From NCBI GenBank assembly GCA_947448735.1, contig CANFOS010000002.1:124001-188000 (forward strand): a stretch of 64,000 bases of DNA, in the 5' to 3' direction. The DNA comes from Comamonadaceae bacterium. Its GTDB lineage: Bacteria; Pseudomonadota; Gammaproteobacteria; Burkholderiales; Burkholderiaceae_C. Below the pieces are notes generated by a model. It was given only the letters and a program-made list of their open reading frames with translations. It was not told where the DNA came from and ran no database searches. Shown piece after piece: positions 4,448 to 15,123 of this stretch. Made by a program: the position numbers and the translations under genes. Numbering within the stretch: position 1 is the first letter of the stretch; each line of letters starts with the position of its first letter.

Positions 4448-5698
4448 TCAGGGCTGAACGCCGTCAATCACAAGTGTCAATTTGCCGCTGCCTGCCTTGA
4501 CGGGTGCGCTTTGGCCGACCAGATCGCCGCTTTGGGGCAGGGCGTTGCCTGACTTGGACACCCGCGCACCGACGACGACCAGCTCGAACTTGGAGAGTTT
4601 GAGCTCGTCTGACATGGCGGTGCTGTCGTCCAGCGTGAAGGTGATCGGCAGCTCGCTGGCTTTGCGCTTCAAAATGGCCAGCGGCATGCGTGGCCCTTGC
4701 GAGGCCCGCGCGAAGATGAAAACGGTGTCGTCCGGGTTGACTTTGCTTTTCATGGCGGGCGACAAGCTGACAACGCCTTGAATGTTGGCGGCAACTAAAA
4801 CGGGTGTTGGCGCTGCCCTGGCGACTGCTGGCGAGATGCCTGCCTGACCCAAGGCGAGCCGCGCCTCCTCAACGCTGCTGGCCAGGCCTTTGGCAAATTC
4901 GCTGCCCGGTGGCGCCAGCCCTTGGGCCTTGGTCCAAAACTGAACCGCCTTGGCAAACTCTTTTTTCTCAAACGCGGCGCTGCCGGCCAGAGCCAGGGCT
5001 TTCAGGTTGTTCGGGTCCAGCACCAGCGCACGCTCAAACAATCTGGATGGCTCGCCCAGCATGCTCTGGCCTTGCAGCATGGCCACCACGTCGGCGTGAT
5101 CGGCCAGCATCTGGGCGTTGCCGGGGTTCAGCTCCACCGCGCGCTTGTAGGCTTTGTTGGCTTCTGGAAACTTTTGCATGGCAGCATAGGACCGGGCCAG
5201 CATTTCCCAGGCCTTGGGGTCGGGCGGCTGGTTGGCGGGCACCGCCTCTAGGCGGGCGGCAAATGCGCTGACCATCGCCTCAATTTGCTCGGGCGTGGGC
5301 TCGGTGTCGGCCGTGGCCTGCAAGTTAACGGGGTCCAGCGCCTGGATATTGCCCAAAAAGCCGTACATGCCGAGTGCCAGCAACGGGATGGTCAAGCCAA
5401 GCGCCCAGGCAGTACGGTTTGAACTGGCTGTGGCCACGGCAGTTTCAGGTGCGCTTTCTTCTTCAAGGGCGCGGCGTTCAATCTCACTTTTTGCAAGGGC
5501 CAATTGGTCGGCATTGATGCTGCCCGCTGCAAAGTCGGTATCAAGTTGCGTGAGCTGGCTGCGCAGAACGGACAGATTGGCCTGGGCTGCGGCGTCAGTC
5601 GGTTTTTCGTTGTTGATTTTTGACCTGAGCAAGGCAGGCAGAACCAGCACAAGGGCCAACACCAGCAGCAGGGCGGCAGATATCCAAAAAGCGATCAT
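4448..5698 (-). CDS. ccmI: Cytochrome c biogenesis protein CcmI (CycH), TPR protein
   Basis: CcmI holds apocytochrome c for heme attachment by CcmF/H in the cytoplasmic membrane. Two N-terminal membrane segments (about 4-24 and 92-112) bracket a basic/acidic cytoplasmic loop. A periplasmic domain with tetratricopeptide repeats follows (PPDPKAWEMLARSYAAMQKFPEANKAYKRAVELNPGN, quoted in part: EANKAYKRAVELNPGN). The C-terminal ~120 residues form the Ig-like domain usual in fused CcmI/NrfG-type proteins. It is the last gene of the minus-strand ccm operon, 3 bp after ccmH. Length 416 aa is typical. Confidence 0.92.
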   Translation of the reverse strand: MIAFWISAALLLVLALVLVLPALLRSKINNEKPTDAAAQANLSVLRSQLTQLDTDFAAGSINADQLALAKSEIERRALEEESAPETAVATASSNRTAWALGLTIPLLALGMYGFLGNIQALDPVNLQATADTEPTPEQIEAMVSAFAARLEAVPANQPPDPKAWEMLARSYAAMQKFPEANKAYKRAVELNPGNAQMLADHADVVAMLQGQSMLGEPSRLFERALVLDPNNLKALALAGSAAFEKKEFAKAVQFWTKAQGLAPPGSEFAKGLASSVEEARLALGQAGISPAVARAAPTPVLVAANIQGVVSLSPAMKSKVNPDDTVFIFARASQGPRMPLAILKRKASELPITFTLDDSTAMSDELKLSKFELVVVGARVSKSGNALPQSGDLVGQSAPVKAGSGKLTLVIDGVQP

Positions 5699-5701
5699 GT
5701 T

Positions 5702-6166
5702 TTAGTTTTGAGGTGGGTTGGCCAGCAGTTCTCTGGCTTTGGCGATGTCGGCGTCGCTCAATGCCGCAGGCTGGGCGCTGCGCCTGCGCCGCCTGACGTT
5801 CAGCACCAGCATCAGCAGGGCAATTGCCAGCAAAGTAAACGGCCCCAGCCACAGCAGCACGGTGGTGGTTTTAAGCGGCGGGCGGTACAACACAAAGTCG
5901 CCGTAACGCTCGACCATGAACTCCAGAATCTGCTTTTGCGACTGGCCCTGCGTGAGCTTGATGCGGATCTGATTTTTCAGGTCAATCGCCAGGTCGGCAT
6001 GTGACGCGGCAATGGTTTCGTTCTGGCACACGAGACAACGCAGCTCTTCGGCAATCACCATCATGCGGGCTTCAAGGGCCGGGTCTGCCGATGTGTTGGC
6101 CGCCACTTTGGCTTGGGCATTCAAGCTTGAGCAGATCAACAGGGCGATGAAGAGATACCTGAGCAT
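5702..6166 (-). CDS. ccmH: Cytochrome c maturation protein CcmH (CycL)
   Basis: CcmH is a membrane-anchored periplasmic thiol protein that reduces the apocytochrome CXXCH motif before heme ligation. It shows a signal/anchor at the N-terminus, the redox motif LRCLVCQNETIAASHA, the conserved RYGDFVLYRPP segment, and a C-terminal membrane helix followed by an Arg-rich cytoplasmic tail. Length 154 aa is normal. It follows ccmG with no spacer and precedes ccmI. Confidence 0.95.
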   Translation of the reverse strand: MLRYLFIALLICSSLNAQAKVAANTSADPALEARMMVIAEELRCLVCQNETIAASHADLAIDLKNQIRIKLTQGQSQKQILEFMVERYGDFVLYRPPLKTTTVLLWLGPFTLLAIALLMLVLNVRRRRRSAQPAALSDADIAKARELLANPPQN

Positions 6167-6706
6167 TTAACCGGCCGAGAGTTTTTTAACCAGCGGCAAA
6201 ATCGTGTCCCGCAGTGCCTCAGGCGTGACCGGGCCAATCTGCTTGTAGCGGATCACGCCCTGCTTGTCGACCACAAAGGTCTCGGGCACACCGTACACGC
6301 CCAGGTCAATACCTACCAGGCCATCAGCATCGACGAGTGACTGCACATAAGGGTTTCCAAAATTGGCCAGCCAGGCCATGGCCGCAGGCGACTTGTCTTT
6401 GTAGTTCAAGCCGTAGATGGGCACCTGCTTGGTTTTGGAAAGTTCGACCAGTACCGGGTGCTCAATGCGGCAGGCCACGCACCACGATGCCCAGACGTTG
6501 AGCAGCCAGACCTGGCCCAGCATGTCTTGCGCGGCGATGGTCTTGTCAGGTTGGCTCAATACCGCCAACTTGAATTGAGGCAGCGGTTTGTTGATCAGGG
6601 GCGAGGGTACTTCACGCGGGTTCAGCGTCAGGCCAATGGCCAAAAAGCCGACCAACACGATAAAAATCCCCAGCGGCAGGAATCGCTTGAAGGTGGTGCT
6701 GCTCAT
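6167..6706 (-). CDS. ccmG: Thiol:disulfide interchange protein CcmG (DsbE)
   Basis: A membrane-tethered periplasmic thioredoxin that delivers reductant to CcmH and apocytochrome. One N-terminal helix (about 9-27) is followed by a thioredoxin fold with active site WASWCVACRIEHP and the cis-proline region YGVPETFVVDKQG, both typical of DsbE. Length is 179 aa. Its ATG overlaps the ccmF stop by one base. Confidence 0.96.
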   Translation of the reverse strand: MSSTTFKRFLPLGIFIVLVGFLAIGLTLNPREVPSPLINKPLPQFKLAVLSQPDKTIAAQDMLGQVWLLNVWASWCVACRIEHPVLVELSKTKQVPIYGLNYKDKSPAAMAWLANFGNPYVQSLVDADGLVGIDLGVYGVPETFVVDKQGVIRYKQIGPVTPEALRDTILPLVKKLSAG

Positions 6707-8733
6707 CAGGCCTGAACCACGGTATTGTCTTTGGCTGCAACGGGCGAAGCGGCTACGTGCTTGGCGGATGCAACAGCGGGCGCTGTTTTTTTGGCCGCCA
6801 CCTTCACCGCACGGTAGCGCCGGTCCAGCACAGCCAGCAAGCCGCCGAGGGCCATCAGCACGCAGCCCAACCAGATCCAGTTGACAAACGGTTTGTGGTG
6901 CAGGCGCACGCTCCAGGCCGTGCTGCTGACGGGCTCGCCGAGCGCCACATACAAGTCGCGGGTGATGCCCCGGTCAATCGCCACTTCGGTCATTGGCATG
7001 CTGCGCACGGTGTAGATGCGGCGTTCGGGGCTGAGCGTGGCAATTGTCTTGTCGCCATCCGTCACGGTCAATGTCGCGCGTGCCGACGAGTAGTTCGGGC
7101 CCTTGGCCTGCACCACCTTGTCCAGCTTGAAGGTGTAGCCGCCGACGGTCGCTGTTTCACCGGGCTCCATGCGCACATCGTTTTCGCTCTGAAAACTGCT
7201 GACCACAGTCACACCAACAATGAACACCGCAATGCCAAAGTGCGCCAGCAGCATGCCGTAGTAGCTGCCCGGCTGCGCTGCAAAGCGGGCCAGCCAGCTG
7301 GGCGAGCGGTGCTCGCGCACTTTGGTGATCAGGTTCACAACAGCTGTGCTTGCCACCCACACCGCCAGCAGCAAGCCCAAGCCCGTCATGGGCGTCCAGC
7401 TGCCCAGCAGCATTGGCGCGATGATGGCACTTGCAACGCTGACGCCAATCGCCCAGCGCAGGCGCTTGGCCAGATCGATCACCTCAGCCTGGCGCCAGCG
7501 TGTCATGGGGCCAACACCCATCAAGAACAAAGCAGGAGCAATCAAAGGCACAAAAACAGCCACAAAATACGGTGGGCCGACTGACAGTTTTCCCATGCCG
7601 AGTGCGTCAATCACCAATGGGTAAATGGTGCCCAGCAGTACGGCCGCAGCGGCCACCACCAGCAACACATTGTTGGCCAGCAGCATGGATTCACGCGACA
7701 CCGGCTCAAAGCTGCCGCCCAAACCCACACGCGGCGCGCGCCAGGCAAACAGCGCCAGCGAACCACCAATCACGAAGGCCAGAAACCCCAGAATAAAAAT
7801 ACCGCGTGCGGGGTCTGTCGCAAAAGCATGAACAGAACTCAGCACGCCCGAACGAACAATAAAGGTACCCAATAGCGAGAGCGAAAACGTCATGATGGCC
7901 AGCAGGGCGGTCCACATTTTGAAGCCGCCGCGCTTTTCAGTCACGGCCAGTGAATGAATCAATGCGGTGCCGACCAGCCAGGGCATAAAGGATGCGTTTT
8001 CGACCGGGTCCCAAAACCACCAGCCGCCCCAGCCCAATTCGTAGTACGCCCAAAAACTGCCGAGCGCAATGCCCACCGTCAAAAAGCACCATGCCACCGT
8101 CGTCCACGGGCGTGACCAGCGCGCCCAGGCGGCGTCCAGTCGGCCCGACAACAGCGCCGCAATCGCAAATGCAAAAGCCACCACAAAACCCACATAACCC
8201 ATGTACAGCATCGGCGGGTGGATGACCATGCCGGGGTCTTGCAACAAAGGGTTCAGGTCTTGCCCATCGGGCGCGGCGGGAAGCAGGCGGATGAAGGGGT
8301 TGGACGTCAGCAGCGTGAACAAAATAAAACCACAGCTGATCAAACCCATCACGCCCAGTACACGCGCCACCATGCGGTCATCCAGCTGCTTTGAAAAAAT
8401 GGACACCGCCAATGTCCAGCCCGACAGAATCAGGGCCCACAGCAATATCGAGCCTTCGTGGTTGCCCCAGACAGCAGTGAATTTGTAAACCAAAGGCAGC
8501 ATGCTGTTGGAATGCTGCGCCGCCAGCTGAACCGAAAAGTCATTGGTGACAAACGCATAGGTCAGGCACCCGTAGGCTATCGCAACGAACACAAATTGCC
8601 CGCGTGCCGAAGGCCGCGCCAGCGCCATCCAAGCAGCGTTTCCCTTGTGGGCGCCAATCAATGGCAACATGCTTTGCGACAGCGCCATCATGAAGGCCAA
8701 AATAAGGGCAAAGTGGCCGAGTTCACTGATCAT
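6706..8733 (-). CDS. ccmF: Heme lyase subunit CcmF
   Basis: CcmF is the multi-spanning membrane component of the system I cytochrome c synthetase. The 675-aa protein has about 14-15 hydrophobic helices and the tryptophan-rich WWD domain GWGGWWFWDPVENASFMPW, which handles heme from holo-CcmE. Conserved histidines flank it (e.g. WGNHEGS). The C-terminus carries an Ala/Lys-rich tail with no known role. Located between ccmE and ccmG in canonical order. Confidence 0.97.
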   Translation of the reverse strand: MISELGHFALILAFMMALSQSMLPLIGAHKGNAAWMALARPSARGQFVFVAIAYGCLTYAFVTNDFSVQLAAQHSNSMLPLVYKFTAVWGNHEGSILLWALILSGWTLAVSIFSKQLDDRMVARVLGVMGLISCGFILFTLLTSNPFIRLLPAAPDGQDLNPLLQDPGMVIHPPMLYMGYVGFVVAFAFAIAALLSGRLDAAWARWSRPWTTVAWCFLTVGIALGSFWAYYELGWGGWWFWDPVENASFMPWLVGTALIHSLAVTEKRGGFKMWTALLAIMTFSLSLLGTFIVRSGVLSSVHAFATDPARGIFILGFLAFVIGGSLALFAWRAPRVGLGGSFEPVSRESMLLANNVLLVVAAAAVLLGTIYPLVIDALGMGKLSVGPPYFVAVFVPLIAPALFLMGVGPMTRWRQAEVIDLAKRLRWAIGVSVASAIIAPMLLGSWTPMTGLGLLLAVWVASTAVVNLITKVREHRSPSWLARFAAQPGSYYGMLLAHFGIAVFIVGVTVVSSFQSENDVRMEPGETATVGGYTFKLDKVVQAKGPNYSSARATLTVTDGDKTIATLSPERRIYTVRSMPMTEVAIDRGITRDLYVALGEPVSSTAWSVRLHHKPFVNWIWLGCVLMALGGLLAVLDRRYRAVKVAAKKTAPAVASAKHVAASPVAAKDNTVVQA

Positions 8734-8779
8734 GGTGGCTTGAAGGTTGCTTCGGTTAAGGGGCTAAAGGCTAAGCGGA

Positions 8780-9247
8780 TTAGGGGGTTTGTTTGAGGGT
8801 GGCGCTGGTCTGTTGCGGCTTGCCCGCTGCAGCGTTTTTCAAGGCTGTCGCGGCTTCGGGCGGCATGTAGTTTTCATCATGCTTGGCCAGTACCTGGTCG
8901 GCCCTGAAGATGCCGTCGGCGCCCAGTTTGCCCTGCGCCACGACGCCTTTGCCTTCTTTAAACAGGTCAGGCAGCAGGCCGGTGTAGGTGACAGGAATCG
9001 TCTTGGCCAGATCGGTGACCACAAAACGGGTCGTCAGTCCCTGGGTTTCACGCTGGATACTGCCTTGCTCTACCAAGCCGCCAATGCGAAAACTTCGGCC
9101 CTGTGGCGCTTCGTTGGCCGCAACCTGCGTGGGGCTGAAGAAAAACACCAGATTGCTGTTAAAGGCGTTCAGCACCAACGCGGTAGCCACACCCAGGGCA
9201 GCAAGCCCGCAGGCAATCGCTATCAGTCGTTTGCTTCTTGGTTTCAT
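8780..9247 (-). CDS. ccmE: Periplasmic heme chaperone CcmE
   Basis: CcmE covalently binds heme and ferries it to CcmF/H. There is one N-terminal membrane anchor (about 8-27), the [11 protein letters not shown] beta-barrel motif, and the heme-attachment motif [11 protein letters not shown] with the H-x-x-x-Y pattern. The Ala/Lys-rich C-terminal tail is flexible. Its start overlaps the end of ccmD by 4 bp. Length 155 aa is normal. Confidence 0.96.
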
Positions 9248-9429
9248 GACTCGAATTGTCCGGTATCTGGCGCGCCCTGCTCACGCGCCTCGGACAAAAG
9301 CGCACGGCGTTTGAGGTTAAGTGTGAGGGGCTCCATGATGCAAACCAGCAGGCAAGCACCCACAGACCCCCAAACATAAAGACCGTAGCCGCCCATCGCT
9401 AAAAAATCACTTAGGCTATTCCACATCAC
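9244..9429 (-). CDS. ccmD: Heme exporter subunit CcmD
   Basis: A 61-aa single-helix membrane protein that links CcmE to the CcmABC complex. The N-terminal [14 protein letters not shown] motif followed by a hydrophobic helix and a basic Leu-rich stretch (LNLKRRALL) is the normal CcmD pattern. It overlaps ccmC by 4 bp upstream and ccmE by 4 bp downstream. Confidence 0.93.
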
Positions 9430-10169
9430 ATGGCCCCCATTTCGGCACGCGCCCAGGCGGTGTGGCGTTCACGTTCAAGAATAATGACCCGCACCCGCTT
9501 GAGCACCACCGCAATGCAGTAAGCCCAAAAAGCCAGTGCCATGACCAGCATGGCAATCAGCATGGGTGTGGCCATGCTCGTGCCTTTAAAGCTGACAGAT
9601 GCGCCCTGATGCAGGGTGTTCCACCATTTGACTGAAAAATAAATGATCGGCACGTTCACCACGCCAATCAATGCCAGTAGCCCCGCAGCGCGGTCGGCTC
9701 GGCGCACGTCATCAATCGATGCATGCAGGGACATGAAACCGATGTACAAAAAAAGCAGAACCAGTTCAGATGTCAGGCGCGCGTCCCACACCCACCACGC
9801 GCCCCAGGTGGGCTTACCCCACAGCGCACCGGTCCAGAGCGCCAATACCGTCATCAGCGCACCCGTTGGGGCCAGCGCGCAAGCCATCATGGACGACAGG
9901 CGTGAGTTGAACACCAGCCCGACGCCCGCCCAGCCGGCCATGGCAACGTAAATCACCATCGACATCCAGGCCGTTGGCACGTGGACAAAAATAATCCGGT
10001 AGGCTTGGCCTTGCGTGGCATCGGTCGGGGCCACCCACAGGCCCAGATAGAGGCCATAGGCGGCCAACAAAACCCCGGCCACCGTAAACCATGGCATCAG
10101 GCGCCCAGCCAGTGGGTAAAAGCGCTGCGGCGCGGCAAACTGAAACCAGTTCATCTTATGGTTGGGCAC
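9426..10169 (-). CDS. ccmC: Heme exporter subunit CcmC
   Basis: CcmC attaches heme to CcmE. It is a six-helix membrane protein with the WWD motif GAWWVWDARLTSE and flanking conserved histidines (FVHVPTAWM; LHASIDD-type loop). The annotated start is GTG at 10169, supported by AGGAA about 9 nt upstream. The ATG five codons later (10154) has no ribosome-binding site. Length 247 aa. The 61-bp gap to ccmB is the only sizeable gap in this half of the operon. Confidence 0.95.
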   Translation of the reverse strand: MPNHKMNWFQFAAPQRFYPLAGRLMPWFTVAGVLLAAYGLYLGLWVAPTDATQGQAYRIIFVHVPTAWMSMVIYVAMAGWAGVGLVFNSRLSSMMACALAPTGALMTVLALWTGALWGKPTWGAWWVWDARLTSELVLLFLYIGFMSLHASIDDVRRADRAAGLLALIGVVNVPIIYFSVKWWNTLHQGASVSFKGTSMATPMLIAMLVMALAFWAYCIAVVLKRVRVIILERERHTAWARAEMGAM

Positions 10170-10230
10170 TTGTCGTGATTCCTAAATCTTCTGAGTCATT
10201 TTATTCAGCCGGCTAACGTGCACAGGCCGC

Positions 10231-10917
10231 TCATTCCATCGAAATCCGCAGTGCCGCAGCCGACACCCAGGGCGCTGCCAGCAGTCCGAGGATCAGCAGC
10301 GCCCCCAGCAACGAGAAATGTCCCGCCACACCCAGTCCGGCGTTGTGCGCCTCGACGGCACCTGCACCAAAAATCAGCACCGGAATGGTCAAAGGGAGCA
10401 CCAGCAAGGACAGCAAGACACTGGAGCCACGCAAACCGACCGTCAGAGCAGCGCCCATCGAACCTACCAGGCTCAAAATGGGCGTGCCCAGCAGCAGCGA
10501 CAGCACCAGCACACCGGTAGCCGACGCAGACAAATCAAACTGCAGTGCCAGCACTGGCGACAACAGCACCAGCGGCAGGCCGGAGCCGACCCAGTGCGCC
10601 ATCGTTTTGCCAAATACAAGCAGCGCCAGCGGGTAGGTTGACAGCAGCATCTGTTCTAAAGTTCCGTCGGCGTGGTCGTCGGCAAACAGACGCGGCAGCG
10701 ACAGCATGGATGCCAGCATCGCTGCCACCCACAAGACACCGGGTGCCATGGTGCGCAGCAATTGCGTTTCAGGCCCGACCCCCAGCGGGAACAGGCTGAC
10801 CACCATGACAAAGAAAATCAGCGTTGACAAGGTATCGCTGCGCCGCCGCAAGGCCACCCGCAGGTCGCGCCGCAGCACCACCATCAGGCCCGTCATCAGG
10901 CGAGGGGCTGCGCTCAT
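10231..10917 (-). CDS. ccmB: Heme exporter subunit CcmB
   Basis: Membrane permease of the CcmAB ABC module that drives release of holo-CcmE. Six hydrophobic segments are visible. The family motif is clear around LSLPRLFADDHADGTLEQ. The ORF track opens 36 codons upstream, but the ATG at 10917 overlaps the ccmA stop codon (ATGA) and begins MSAAPRLMTGL, which fits family N-termini. The resulting length is 228 aa. Confidence 0.93.
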   Translation of the reverse strand: MSAAPRLMTGLMVVLRRDLRVALRRRSDTLSTLIFFVMVVSLFPLGVGPETQLLRTMAPGVLWVAAMLASMLSLPRLFADDHADGTLEQMLLSTYPLALLVFGKTMAHWVGSGLPLVLLSPVLALQFDLSASATGVLVLSLLLGTPILSLVGSMGAALTVGLRGSSVLLSLLVLPLTIPVLIFGAGAVEAHNAGLGVAGHFSLLGALLILGLLAAPWVSAAALRISME

Positions 10918-11537
10918 AGCGTCAAGTCCACCTGGTTTGCTGCGGCAATCGGCATGTCCTGGTGACTGGTCAGCACCACGATGCCGGCGTTTTTCAGATG
11001 GCCTTCTATCAGGCCGGTCAGCCATGCGTTGGCGGCAATGTCCAGTGCATTAAAGGGTTCATCAAGAATCCACAAAGGGGCATGTTGGCTCAGGGCCAGG
11101 CGCGCCAAGGCGCTGCGCCTGCGCTGGCCTTGTGACAGGCGGCGTGCAGGGGTGCGCTCATGGCTGCGCAGGCCAGCACCCTGGAGTGCTGCCAGCGCTG
11201 CTGGCAGGGTGGGAATGTGTCCACCTAGGTTGCAGGCGTCGAACAAATTTTCAAGCGGCGACAGTTCATCTTTCAAGGCGGCCGCGTGACCCAGGTACAT
11301 CAGGTCCTGCCCCAGCCTGTCGCGCTGCGCGCTCAAGGGTTTTCCATGCCACAGCACCTGACCGTTGGTGGGCAGCAGCAAGCCGCACAGCATGCGCAGC
11401 AAACTGGTCTTGCCCGCGCCATTGGCACCGCGCACCCGTAGCAGGTCGCCTGGTTTGACTGTCAGCGACAGGCCGCCAAACAACTGGCGGCTGCCTCTGG
11501 TGCAGGCCAGGTTATCCAGTTCAAGACCGTGGCTCAT
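10914..11537 (-). CDS. ccmA: Cytochrome c biogenesis ATP-binding protein CcmA
   Basis: ABC ATPase of the heme-handling CcmABCD complex. The Walker A motif GANGAGKTS, signature RLSQGQRRR, Walker B LWILDEP and switch His TSHQD are all present in the right order. The ORF could begin at 11591, but neither that ATG nor the ATG at 11537 has a strong ribosome-binding site. I chose 11537 (MSHGLELD) because family members start just before the first beta strand. It is the first gene of the minus-strand operon, divergent from crtE. Confidence 0.92.
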   Translation of the reverse strand: MSHGLELDNLACTRGSRQLFGGLSLTVKPGDLLRVRGANGAGKTSLLRMLCGLLLPTNGQVLWHGKPLSAQRDRLGQDLMYLGHAAALKDELSPLENLFDACNLGGHIPTLPAALAALQGAGLRSHERTPARRLSQGQRRRSALARLALSQHAPLWILDEPFNALDIAANAWLTGLIEGHLKNAGIVVLTSHQDMPIAAANQVDLTL

Positions 11538-11676
11538 GGCCTGGCCGGCAAAAACGGGACGCAATGAAAAAAGCCCAAAGCACAACTCCATAAAAAATCG
11601 ATTGTCGCGTGGATTGTCACGTGACCGACCAGTCGCCTGTCTGCGCGTTCAAGCGGGTTGACGGCTTCTTTAAATG

Positions 11677-11736: not shown

Positions 11737-12657
11737 ATGAAAGCCATCACACACATCGAACAATCCCTGGCTGCAGCACTGGCTCTCGGTGAGGAACCGG
11801 GTTGCCCACCCAAGCTGGCCAACGCGGTACGACATGCTGTGTTTCCGGGTGGGGCGCGCATCCGGCCCCAGCTGTGCCTGGCGGTGGCGCATGCTTGTGG
11901 CAACGACGATCCCTTGCTGGCCGATGCCGCAGCCGTGGCCATTGAACTGCTGCATTGCGCCTCGCTGGTGCATGACGATCTGCCGTGTTTTGACGATGCC
12001 CCCACACGCCGTGGTCGGGCTTCGGTGCATTGGGCGTACGGCGAAAGTCTGGCGGTTCTGGCGGGTGACGCCCTGATCGTGCTGGCTTTCCAGACCCTTG
12101 GCCTGGCAGGTGGCCAGTCACCCCAACGCATGGCCGAAGTGCTTGGCGTGGTCGCCAAAGGCGTCGGCATGCCCTTTGGTATTGTGGCTGGGCAGGCCTG
12201 GGAAAGCGAGTCACGGGTGTCGCTCACGGCGTATCAGCGGGCCAAGACGGGAGCCCTCTTTGTAGCTGCAACGGCTGGCGGTGCTTTGGCCGCGGGCGCA
12301 GACCCCAAGCCCTGGGTGGCGCTGGGCGAGTGGCTCGGCGAGGCCTATCAGGTGGCCGATGATATTCGCGATGTGCTGGCAGACCCAAGCATGCTCGGCA
12401 AGCCGGTGGGGCAGGACCTTGCACTGGGCCGCCCCAGTTCGGCGATTGACCTCGGGTTGGGCGGCGCCATCGCCTACTTCGAAAAACTGGTTCAGTCGGC
12501 CATCGATTCGGTGCCTGAATGCGCCAGCCGCGAGGCGATGCGCCAGTTGGTGCGCCAGGAGTCAGAGCGCCTGGTGCCACGCGAGGCCTGCGACAAGTTC
12601 AGACATGTGCAGGCCGTCAATGGCGGTGTCTCAGCTGTCAAAGGCGTTGCCGCCTGA
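11737..12657 (+). CDS. crtE: Geranylgeranyl diphosphate synthase
   Basis: CrtE makes C20 geranylgeranyl diphosphate for carotenoids and the bacteriochlorophyll tail. The two aspartate-rich prenyltransferase motifs are present: DDLPCFDD (first) and DDIRD (second); the GGARIRPQL segment binds the diphosphate. The ORF track starts at 11689, but ATG 11737 has GGAG 5 nt upstream and gives the normal N-terminus MKAITHIEQS; the earlier start would overlap the operators. Length 306 aa. The stop overlaps the crtF start by one base. Confidence 0.95.
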   Translation: MKAITHIEQSLAAALALGEEPGCPPKLANAVRHAVFPGGARIRPQLCLAVAHACGNDDPLLADAAAVAIELLHCASLVHDDLPCFDDAPTRRGRASVHWAYGESLAVLAGDALIVLAFQTLGLAGGQSPQRMAEVLGVVAKGVGMPFGIVAGQAWESESRVSLTAYQRAKTGALFVAATAGGALAAGADPKPWVALGEWLGEAYQVADDIRDVLADPSMLGKPVGQDLALGRPSSAIDLGLGGAIAYFEKLVQSAIDSVPECASREAMRQLVRQESERLVPREACDKFRHVQAVNGGVSAVKGVAA

Positions 12658-13853
12658 TGCGAACACTCGACTTGGCCAAGCCGCTGGACGGTGGGCATAG
12701 CAGGCCCGCCTGGCGTGATCGGCTGGATGCCTGGATGGACAGAAAGCTCACCGACCCCGGCTTTTCACGTTGGGCTGCCGCAAATGTGTTGACCCGCTGG
12801 ATCACACGCAGACGCGCGCAGCAGGTGTTCGATGTGATGGCTGGTTTTGTGTATTCGCAAGTGTTGTTAGCGTGTGTGCGGCTGCGCATTTTTGAACTGG
12901 TCAATGAGACCCCACGCACGCTGGACGAACTGGCGCAAATTTGCCACGTGCCCGCATCGGCTTTGCAGCGCTTGATCAATTCTGCTGTCGCCCTCAGGTT
13001 GCTGGCGCTGCGCGGGCAAGGCCGTTACGGCTTGGGAGCACTCGGTGCACCCGTTGCTGGTCATCCGGGCATACGCGCCATGATTGAGCACCATGCTGTG
13101 CTGTACCACGACATGCAAGACCCGGTGGCCCTGCTGCGTGACCAGGTCAGTGACGGACAAATGATGGCCTACTGGCCGTATGTTGAAACCCATATGCAAG
13201 ACCTTGGGGTCAGTGGGCAGCCGCAACAAGCCCCCAGAGCCTGGGAGCAGGAAAAAGTGTCGCGTTATTCGCAGCTCATGTCCGCCTCGCAGCCCTTCGT
13301 GGTGGACGAGGTGTTGGCGACCTACTCATTTGCCAGGCATCAATGCGTGCTGGATGTGGGTGGCGGGCAGGGCACGTTTGTCAGTCGTTTGGCGGGGCAC
13401 GCGCCGCACCTCAAGCTCAAGTTGTTTGACTTGCCCCAAGTCGCTGCGCTGGCGCAGGACAACTTCAGGCAGAAATCTCTTTCTGACCGGGCAGACGCTT
13501 TTGGTGGTGATTTTTTAAAGGATTCGCTGCCCGAAGGCGCGGACCTGGTCACGCTGATACGTGTTGCGCACGACCACCCTGACGCACATGTCAACATCAT
13601 CTTGCGCGCCATCTTCAGGGCCTTGCCTGCGGGCGGCACCTTGCTGCTGACCGAGCCAATGGCCCAGGCCAGCGACGAGGCGCCGCTTGGGGATGCTTAT
13701 TTCCATTTCTATCTTTTGGCGATGGGCTCGGGCCGTTTGCGCACCGTCAAAGAGTTGAGCGACATGATCATGAACGCGGGCTTTGACCGCGTTGACGTCA
13801 TGGCTAACGCCATGCCTTTGCAGACGCGAATTCTTGTGGCGCACAAAAAATAA
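12657..13853 (+). CDS. crtF: Hydroxyneurosporene/demethylspheroidene O-methyltransferase
   Basis: CrtF transfers a methyl group from S-adenosylmethionine to the tertiary hydroxyl of hydroxylated carotenoids in the spheroidene pathway. The N-terminal dimerisation/winged-helix half (about 60-160) and C-terminal class I methyltransferase half are both visible. The SAM-binding loop reads VLDVGGGQGTF, with a later LFDLPQV motif and a His-Asp-His region RVAHDHPD. The ATG overlaps the crtE stop (TGATG), excluding the longer ORF start. Length is 398 aa. Confidence 0.93.
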   Translation: MRTLDLAKPLDGGHSRPAWRDRLDAWMDRKLTDPGFSRWAAANVLTRWITRRRAQQVFDVMAGFVYSQVLLACVRLRIFELVNETPRTLDELAQICHVPASALQRLINSAVALRLLALRGQGRYGLGALGAPVAGHPGIRAMIEHHAVLYHDMQDPVALLRDQVSDGQMMAYWPYVETHMQDLGVSGQPQQAPRAWEQEKVSRYSQLMSASQPFVVDEVLATYSFARHQCVLDVGGGQGTFVSRLAGHAPHLKLKLFDLPQVAALAQDNFRQKSLSDRADAFGGDFLKDSLPEGADLVTLIRVAHDHPDAHVNIILRAIFRALPAGGTLLLTEPMAQASDEAPLGDAYFHFYLLAMGSGRLRTVKELSDMIMNAGFDRVDVMANAMPLQTRILVAHKK

Positions 13854-13879: not shown

Positions 13880-13923
13880 CGTCAATAATAGTTGACACTT
13901 TAAAACGTAAAAGTAAACTGACA
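13880..13923 (+). promoter_or_regulatory. Tandem PpsR/CrtJ-like operators before the bchC remnant / bchXYZ-puf
   Basis: Two half-degenerate palindromes, CGT-N12-ACA at 13880-13897 and CGT-N12-ACA at 13906-13923, are separated by exactly 8 bp. Each carries a perfect right half (TGACA) and differs from TGT-N12-ACA only at the first base. TTGACA at 13892 could serve as -35 with TAAACT at 13914. The spacing equals that of the crtE pair in this window and that known for the bchC promoter of Rhodobacter. Confidence 0.55.
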
Positions 13924-13925
13924 CA

Positions 13926-14137
13926 ATGCAAGCCGAAGCGATCGTCGTATTGACAAGCCCCAAAACCCTGGACATCCAGCGTCTGGATCGGGCTGGCTTT
14001 TGTAAGAAATCACTCAATTTTTCCTTTGCGCAGGCCTTCGTGGGCAATAAGCCCGCGAATGCAGCCTGTGCCTACGAATCGCTGTTGGCGATACAGCCTG
14101 CTTAAAAATGATTTTGGATTGGAAACACCGCACATGA
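13926..14137 (+). pseudogene. bchC: bchC remnant: N-terminus fused to frameshifted C-terminus
   Basis: BchC is the NAD-dependent dehydrogenase that oxidises the C3-hydroxyethyl group of bacteriochlorophyllide. It normally has >300 aa and lies directly before bchX. Here an ATG frame starts MQAEAIVVLTSPKTLDIQRL, like BchC N-termini, but after ~21 codons jumps to unrelated or C-terminal sequence and stops at 14105 (59 codons, too short for the ORF track). One base out of frame, ACLKMILDWK, the typical BchC C-terminus, runs to TGA at 14135-14137. That stop overlaps the bchX ATG as ATGA, the expected ancestral junction. I infer an internal deletion of roughly 270 codons plus a 1-base shift. Identification is from remembered family sequence. 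Confidence 0.72.
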
Positions 14138-15123
14138 ACCCGACGACCATCATGATGAAAGATCTCCGCGCAGAGGCGGCTATTGAGCCAACGCCAATGA
14201 AAACGGGCGAGGCCAACAAGGAAACGCAAATCATCGCCATATATGGCAAAGGCGGTATTGGCAAAAGCTTTACGCTCGCCAACCTCAGCTACATGATGGC
14301 CCAGCAGGGCAAGAAAGTTTTGCTCATCGGTTGTGACCCGAAGAGTGACACGACCAGTCTGTTGTTTGGCGGTCGGGCTTGCCCCACCATCATTGAAACG
14401 TCGTCGAAGAAAAAACTGGCTGGCGAGGCTGTTTCGATCGGCGATGTGTGCTTCAAAAGGGACGGCGTTTATGCCATGGAGCTCGGCGGTCCTGAAGTCG
14501 GACGCGGTTGCGGAGGGCGCGGCATCATTCATGGCTTCGAGCTTCTCGAAAAGCTCGGTTTTCACGACTGGGGCTTTGACTACGTCCTGCTCGACTTTTT
14601 GGGCGATGTGGTGTGCGGCGGTTTTGGCCTCCCGATTGCTCGAGACATGTGCCAAAAAGTGATCGTGGTGGCCAGCAACGACCTGCAGTCGCTTTATGTG
14701 GCCAACAACGTTTGCTCGGCCGTTGAATATTTCCGCAAGCTGGGCGGTAATGTCGGCGTAGCAGGCATGGTGATCAACCGCGATGATGGCACTGGCGAAG
14801 CATCGGCTTTCGCTGAGAAAGTCGGCATTCCTGTGCTGTCAGTGATTCCCGCCAATGACGACATTCGCCGCAAAAGTGCCAGCTACGAAATCATTGGCCG
14901 GCCCGACTCGGTCTGGGGCCCGATGTTTGCTCAGCTCGCAGAAAACGTGGGCACTTCCGAGCCGATTCGGCCTAAACCGATGACGCAAGACCAGCTGCTG
15001 GGTTTGTTCTCGGCCGATGTCGTGGGCCGCAATGTGGTGCTGGAGCCAGCCACGCAGTTTGACATGTGCGGCAAAAAAGAAACTGTCAAAGAAACGCTTG
15101 AAGTCGTTTACGACGAAGTCTGA
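14134..15123 (+). CDS. bchX: Chlorophyllide a reductase iron protein subunit X
   Basis: BchX is the NifH-like ATPase that passes electrons to BchYZ for reduction of ring B of chlorophyllide a. It has the P-loop GKGGIGKSF (about residue 41), switch region GCDPKSDTT, and the two cluster-ligand cysteines in RGCGGRG and VVCGGFG. The ORF track begins at 14026, but the ATG at 14134 overlaps the bchC-remnant stop and yields MNPTTIMMKDL, a normal BchX start. Length is 329 aa. bchY follows 15 bp later. Confidence 0.95.
   Translation: MNPTTIMMKDLRAEAAIEPTPMKTGEANKETQIIAIYGKGGIGKSFTLANLSYMMAQQGKKVLLIGCDPKSDTTSLLFGGRACPTIIETSSKKKLAGEAVSIGDVCFKRDGVYAMELGGPEVGRGCGGRGIIHGFELLEKLGFHDWGFDYVLLDFLGDVVCGGFGLPIARDMCQKVIVVASNDLQSLYVANNVCSAVEYFRKLGGNVGVAGMVINRDDGTGEASAFAEKVGIPVLSVIPANDDIRRKSASYEIIGRPDSVWGPMFAQLAENVGTSEPIRPKPMTQDQLLGLFSADVVGRNVVLEPATQFDMCGKKETVKETLEVVYDEV

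Follow-up and report, generated by a model that had tools for sequence, protein, structure and literature searches.

Between crtF and bchX in the photosynthesis gene cluster (PGC) of the window, i.e. the whole 64,000-nucleotide stretch of DNA that was analysed, lies a short remnant of bchC. BchC is 3-hydroxyethyl bacteriochlorophyllide a dehydrogenase (TIGR01202, EC 1.1.1.396), the in-operon form of which is encoded within the arrangement crtEF-bchCXYZ-puf. Eighty-seven genomes of the genus were searched for BchX and the junctions compared; we infer the genus to be Polaromonas from the label of one genome, G068 (a MAG, Polaromonas sp. YR568). The window genome is referred to as G000, the other two species with the remnant as G068 and G085, and two congeners with an intact gene as G039 and G041. 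The features of the interval are as follows.

12657..13853 (start approximate), + strand: crtF, intact upstream neighbour; a single open frame with 97% protein identity to G068 and G085
13892..13919, + strand: promoter-like element, TTGACA (13892-13897), 16-nt spacer and TAAACT (13914-13919), read by eye
13926..14137, + strand: bchC remnant (pseudogene) in the crtF/bchX interval, from alignment; the same in G068 and G085
13926..13991, + strand: remnant block 1, the BchC N-terminus, ~22 codons, frame 0; join ambiguous by a few bases
13992..14045, + strand: remnant block 2, internal BchC segment AGFCKKSLNFSFAQAFV, residues ~235-251, frame 0, from score and DNA alignment
14046..14137, + strand: remnant block 3, the BchC C-terminus, split by a 1-bp deletion, with CLKMILDWKHRT in frame 2, from alignment
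13926..14105, + strand: 59-codon open frame across both deletion joins, probably encoding no functional protein; open in 3/3 species
14134..15123, + strand: bchX, intact (TIGR02016, 411 bits against a cut-off of 331)

Translation in frame 0 from the ATG at 13926 gives MQAEAIVVLTSPKTLDIQRLDRAGFCKKSLNFSFAQAFVGNKPANAACAYESLLAIQPA, with the stop at 14103-14105, and translation in frame 2 ends in ...ACLKMILDWKHRT, with the stop at 14135-14137; the TGA that follows CLKMILDWKHRT overlaps the bchX ATG at 14134-14136, just as the initial annotation had reported for the C-terminal stop. When scored against full-length BchC, AGFCKKSLNFSFAQAFV reached 51 (residues 235-251; shuffle maximum 39.5) and the C-terminal segment 54, scores that none of 2000 shuffles attained in either case; the N-terminal segment, which was scored without shuffles, gave 31, a value that is weak taken alone. 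Alignment with the intact in-operon bchC of G039 and G041 resolves the remnant into three blocks separated by two long deletions, together with a 1-bp deletion that precedes the CLKMILDWK segment. At the DNA level, too, both congeners align with the N-terminal block and the promoter that precedes it, and with the intact genes of two congeners as reference all three blocks stand on firm ground. The intact bchC of G039 has 311 codons (936 bp), whereas the remnant of G068 and G085 measures 209 bp, a net loss of 727 bp. Since a single open frame spans both joins, both deletions keep the frame, and the remaining loss is one base. No complete BchC is present at the remnant, which consists of the three blocks only, and the 59-codon frame has no NCBIfam or Pfam match. 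Lying between crtF and bchX, with a disrupted frame and homologous blocks in order, the remnant is a real, well-supported pseudogene of the native in-operon bchC. Its existence at this position had been proposed in the initial annotation, and translation, alignment and comparison with relatives all uphold it. The accompanying description as a deletion-plus-frameshift remnant was right as to frameshift and deletion but incomplete, there being two deletions and three surviving blocks; the N- and C-termini had been recognised correctly, but the middle block, AGFCKKSLNFSFAQAFV, had been missed.

The same remnant, with the same joins, occurs in G068 and G085 (junction DNA identity 85-86%), and the one later indel among the three species is of 3 bp. 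In G039 and G041, the BchX proteins of which are 98% identical, an intact bchC is kept between crtF and bchX. Estimated completeness is 99.8% for G000, 98% for G085, 88% for G039 and 85% for G068, and thus absences in G039 or G068 carry less weight than those in G000 and G085; most of the genomes are fragmented, completeness in several is 70-90%, and an absence from an incomplete genome is to be taken as provisional.

The genes around the remnant look intact, as the initial annotation had held: curated models recover bchN, bchB, bchH, bchL, acsF, ppsR, bchX, bchY and bchZ as intact, and bchI, bchD, puf and the crt genes were assessed from their open frames, their similarity to relatives and dN/dS (0.06-0.08 for crtF). 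The element TTGACA-N16-TAAACT stands at the same place in all five species (G000, G068, G085, G039 and G041), and a TTGACA box is also found between crtF and bchX in genomes in which bchC has been cleanly lost; judged by position and sequence, it probably serves as promoter for the bchXYZ-puf portion of the superoperon. The need of bchXYZ and puf for both this promoter and the bchX start would explain why both have been kept around the remnant. In G039 and G041 a perfect PpsR-type site, TGT-N12-ACA, overlaps the bchC promoter; across the remnant clade the corresponding site (13906-13923 in the window) has decayed, with CGT as its first half.

A full-length bchC was found on a separate contig of the window genome, C17. 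It scores 405 bits with TIGR01202 (curated cut-off 291.25) over profile positions 2-307 of 308, which bears out the option, raised in the initial annotation along with a genome search, that bchC lives elsewhere. A gene of the BciA type begins 3 bp downstream, and the two form a 2-kb island of ~67% GC within DNA of ~53% GC; per 100 bp, GC is 0.60-0.76 inside the island vs 0.43-0.57 outside. We refer to ectopic bchC copies, found by scanning genome contigs with the C17 protein, as bchC2. In G000, G068 and G085 the bchC2-bciA cassette occupies one locus, beside the same IclR and CobW genes; in G039 and G041 neither the pair nor any BciA was found, so that across the five sampled species remnant and cassette co-segregate. 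Regulation may have changed alongside relocation: no TGT-N12-ACA site occurs in the 300 bp upstream of C17 bchC2 in the window genome, and one does so in 3 of the 20 ectopic bchC copies for which there is upstream sequence.

BciA is the NADPH-dependent C8-vinyl reductase, as in Rhodobacter sphaeroides. The BciA-type protein of C17 has an NAD(P)H-binding/NmrA fold (PF13460, 63.9 bits; PF05368, 53 bits) and is 72% identical to the product of a gene on an 860-kb replicon of Rhodobacter sp. CZR27, which we take to correspond to the bciA characterised in R. sphaeroides; no curated BciA family model scored the protein, and its identity as BciA rests on similarity. Unlike the Rhodobacter gene, C17 bciA forms a two-gene unit with bchC, and it stands in for a BciB-type reductase that is kept in the sister species. 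A search with PF04432 found a BciB-type gene in G039 and G041 and none in G000, G068 or G085. The G039/G041 protein has FrhB/FdhB N- and C-terminal domains (PF04432, 95.4 bits; PF04422, 79.2 bits) and an N-terminal cysteine motif, CTDCGLSR, although specificity within the FrhB family is beyond the reach of domains alone. Reductases of the BciB type are ferredoxin-dependent [4Fe-4S]/FAD enzymes (PMC4214422, PMC13297055).

The sequence 3' of bciA differs in G068, and the cassette edge has thus been rearranged in at least one species. Directly 3' of the cassette in G000 and G085 is a degraded transposase-like stretch (L006:8063-8540 and L227:10764-11243), with a Pfam HTH_Tnp_1 match at E 0.052, below the cut-off, and, over 41-51 bp, 84-88% DNA identity to annotated transposases; G068 lacks it and has other sequence in its place. 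An empty site was not found in the nearest species, the IclR neighbour having no orthologue in G039 or G041, and G065, in which CobW-IclR is followed by no cassette, provides a partial empty site only. The idea of a plasmid-borne cassette was dropped, since bchC2 has no plasmid relative above 60% identity.

Close bchC2 copies lie outside the PGC in diverse Burkholderiales; they are 73-98% identical and occur in differing neighbourhoods, as a rule next to bciA. Bootstrap analysis of 74 BchC sequences puts all 21 copies that are ectopic or lie at a contig edge into a single clade (99/90); on this tree the ectopic label changes once, compared with a mean of 18.4 for shuffled labels; a wider tree of 148 sequences agrees with a single bchC2 clade. 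The bchC2 of G000, G068 and G085 nests with Aquabacterium L040 and L041, away from the bchC of G039 and G041, and the BciA of the three groups with that of G089, the genome of L041 (96/86). Its foreign composition and its phylogenetic place apart from the host's own bchC thus mark the cassette as horizontally acquired. On the BciA tree the cassette copies do not all group together. In G089 bchC2 and bciA are on different contigs, so that the two genes may either have moved together or have been joined on the way. A strict partnership of bciA with bchC2 was considered and rejected, as several bchC2 stand alone (e.g. L041, L042, L049 and G479 have no adjoining bciA) and many genomes have BciA without bchC2; within the family BciA is widespread whether bchC2 is present or not. 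Within the ectopic bchC, L135/L222 (G069), L194/L218 (G224) and L193/L219 (G359) form a sub-clade; the gene is convergent with bciA in G069 and G224, and that of G359 is ~3.5 kb away from the copy in the operon, with no bciA match beside it.

Both an in-operon bchC and bchC2 are present in G088-G094, G102, G112, G224, G359 and G069 (the codes overlap in part), and such genomes are the intermediate expected of a replacement. In G479, G097, G098 and G096, crtF is directly followed by bchX and bchC2 is the only copy. These clean losses fall in three places on the BchX tree apart from the clade of the window, G479 going with G097; G096, with a long BchX branch and an unsure place, is the least certain of them. 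Counting the clade of the window, the tree points to about four independent losses of in-operon bchC. Of 401 genomes drawn evenly from the family, 59 contain BchX (counts combined by hand from two tables). In 55 of these bchC is in the operon, and five of the 55 also carry bchC2; two others are divided between contigs; the remaining two, G000 and G479, have no in-operon copy and do have bchC2. No assessable genome of this survey is without both. Fourteen of the genomes with bchC2 were picked out through their carrying it, a bias that the draw of 401 genomes alone avoids.

Comparison between G000, G068 and G085 gave dN/dS of 0.09-0.12 for bchC2 and 0.12-0.16 for bciA, both of which are under purifying selection, and 0.00-0.08 for PGC genes, on which such selection is strong. 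For the remnant the ratio is 0.39-0.68, with dN of 0.06-0.18 vs 0.000-0.024 in the coding neighbours. Tested against neutrality, its nonsynonymous and synonymous differences gave one-sided p values of 0.59, 0.24 and 0.067 (~53 codons, a weak test); there is no significant excess of synonymous change, and the last value, for the G068-G085 pair, is borderline. A functional small protein from the 59-codon frame was rejected as a candidate, there being neither a family match nor clear constraint. Synonymous distances among the three species are 0.1-0.34 for PGC genes and 0.06-0.23 for the neighbours of the cassette on C17.

We consider the best explanation to be a xenologous replacement of bchC in trans, rather than an early loss of phototrophy, with a probability of roughly 0.88. 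The ancestor of the three species would have gained the two-gene cassette, bchC2 and bciA, from a G+C-rich Burkholderiales donor, inserted at an unrelated site, today on contig C17. Once the C3 dehydrogenase was present in duplicate, the gene in the operon would have been free to decay, through two internal deletions and a frameshift, leaving the native bchC of the superoperon dead and its function taken over in trans by bchC2. The same lineage would have switched its 8-vinyl reductase from the BciB to the BciA type. BchC2 from C17 is expected to act in trans on the 3-hydroxyethyl group of bacteriochlorophyllide, which it would oxidise, and BciA to reduce the vinyl group at C8; that both catalyse these steps is predicted from their sequences, as is a pigment synthesis that is probably complete in the cell. 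We infer that gain of the cassette preceded decay in the operon, and bciA is a plausible but unproven reason for the cassette having been kept. Given the full-length bchC on C17, there is no need for the other dehydrogenase that the initial annotation had offered as one option, nor are the 3-hydroxyethyl pigments that it predicted to be expected, loss of phototrophy being unsupported.

The order of events could be reversed, with the native bchC dying first and bchC2 being acquired later as a rescue. No species with an intact operon bchC plus the C17-type cassette was found, as such an order would have it, but an intermediate without BchC would have had a defect in making bacteriochlorophyll a, both copies occur together in many relatives, and the survey has no assessable genome that is without both; we regard a rescue as distinctly unlikely. 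A little less improbable, though still unlikely, is a retained function of the remnant, either as a short coding frame or as a spacer that couples translation into bchX. That both deletions are in frame, that the frame is open in 3/3 species, that the later indel between species is of 3 bp and that the ATGA overlap is retained all fit such a role. However, owing to the 1-bp deletion the frame ends 28 nt before the bchX ATG, which takes the ATGA overlap off the same ribosome; the differences within the remnant fit neutrality, other lineages have removed the whole of bchC cleanly, and a run of ~55 codons free of stops is unsurprising at such divergence.

The early-stage scenario of the initial annotation was that phototrophy is being lost; on this view bchC would simply be the earliest casualty and its counterpart on C17 incidental. 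One PGC gene is indeed clearly dead. We nevertheless hold such a loss to be highly improbable: the other tested PGC genes are intact with low dN/dS, the remnant is common to three species whose synonymous distances in the PGC imply that the cluster was kept long after the death of bchC, and bchC2 is itself under purifying selection. Least probable of all, and very unlikely indeed, is an assembly artefact, be it a full bchC collapsed at the junction or C17 as a contaminant contig. The assembly is of 62 contigs and the GC of C17 (~0.53) is lower than that of the window (0.587), but identical joins in three separate assemblies argue that the remnant is inherited and against the misassembly named in the initial annotation as its refuting case; the cassette is beside the same neighbours in each assembly, and the synonymous divergence of those neighbours resembles that of PGC genes in the same species.

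The BchC protein of C17 shares with in-operon BchC a full-length match above the curated cut-off, and the remnant sits at the classic bchC position; the C17 copy differs in lying outside the PGC, in belonging to the separate bchC2 clade and in having no PpsR-type site within 300 bp upstream. In xenologous gene displacement a homologue is gained horizontally and the resident gene is then lost. The foreign composition, separate phylogeny, decayed resident copy and two-copy intermediates seen here all match that pattern. By contrast with it, the displacement is ectopic rather than in situ, a member of an essential pathway leaves a tightly coupled superoperon, some four lineages appear to be involved, and, along with the displacement, another step of the pathway passes to a different class of enzyme.

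The usual view of a photosynthesis gene cluster is of one unit, passed on to descendants, transferred or lost in its entirety. Here a gene from the middle of a superoperon would instead have given way to a homologue of outside origin, situated far from the cluster. The fossil in three species, the presence of both copies elsewhere and the clean deletions in further lineages provide what may be read as a dated series of steps. Absence of bchC from the cluster does not mean that pigment synthesis is non-functional, and the choice of 8-vinyl reductase, BciA or BciB, appears to be linked to cluster reorganisation. While the consequence for the cell would be ordinary, the history is instructive, involving as it does a recurrent ectopic replacement and a change in 8-vinyl reductase class. 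In a literature search with subscription journals largely outside its scope, no paper joining Polaromonas, the PGC and bchC was found, and such a replacement is not described in the accessible parts of the literature on bchC with bciA or pseudogenes. As a more tentative extension, which we think possible though rather doubtful, bchC2(-bciA) might be a transferable module that repeatedly pulls two late bacteriochlorophyll steps out of the superoperon and PpsR control; the gain would be an NADPH-dependent BciA in place of the ferredoxin-dependent iron-sulfur BciB in aerobic phototrophs, and bchC would have come as a passenger before displacing the resident gene.

Some further observations concern the clusters as a whole. 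On the BchX tree, G000, G068, G085, G039 and G041 are set apart from G065, G083, G069 and G044 and from G045, G046, G033, G030 and G081. BchX is only 81-85% identical between these lineages of the genus, which lie on separate branches and thus represent at least two or three PGC lineages, and this suggests that whole PGCs moved into the genus more than once. In L111, a Caulobacterales MAG, the gene order is different, with a BchX match ~2 kb beyond bchC within the cluster. Between bchO and crtE in the window (4448-11591, - strand), the open reading frames look, on inspection by eye, like an operon for cytochrome c maturation (ccmA, B, C, E, F, G, H and I); a similar gap of 7.4 kb separates bchO and crtE in G085, and the interval is ~1.4 kb in L057 and L058.
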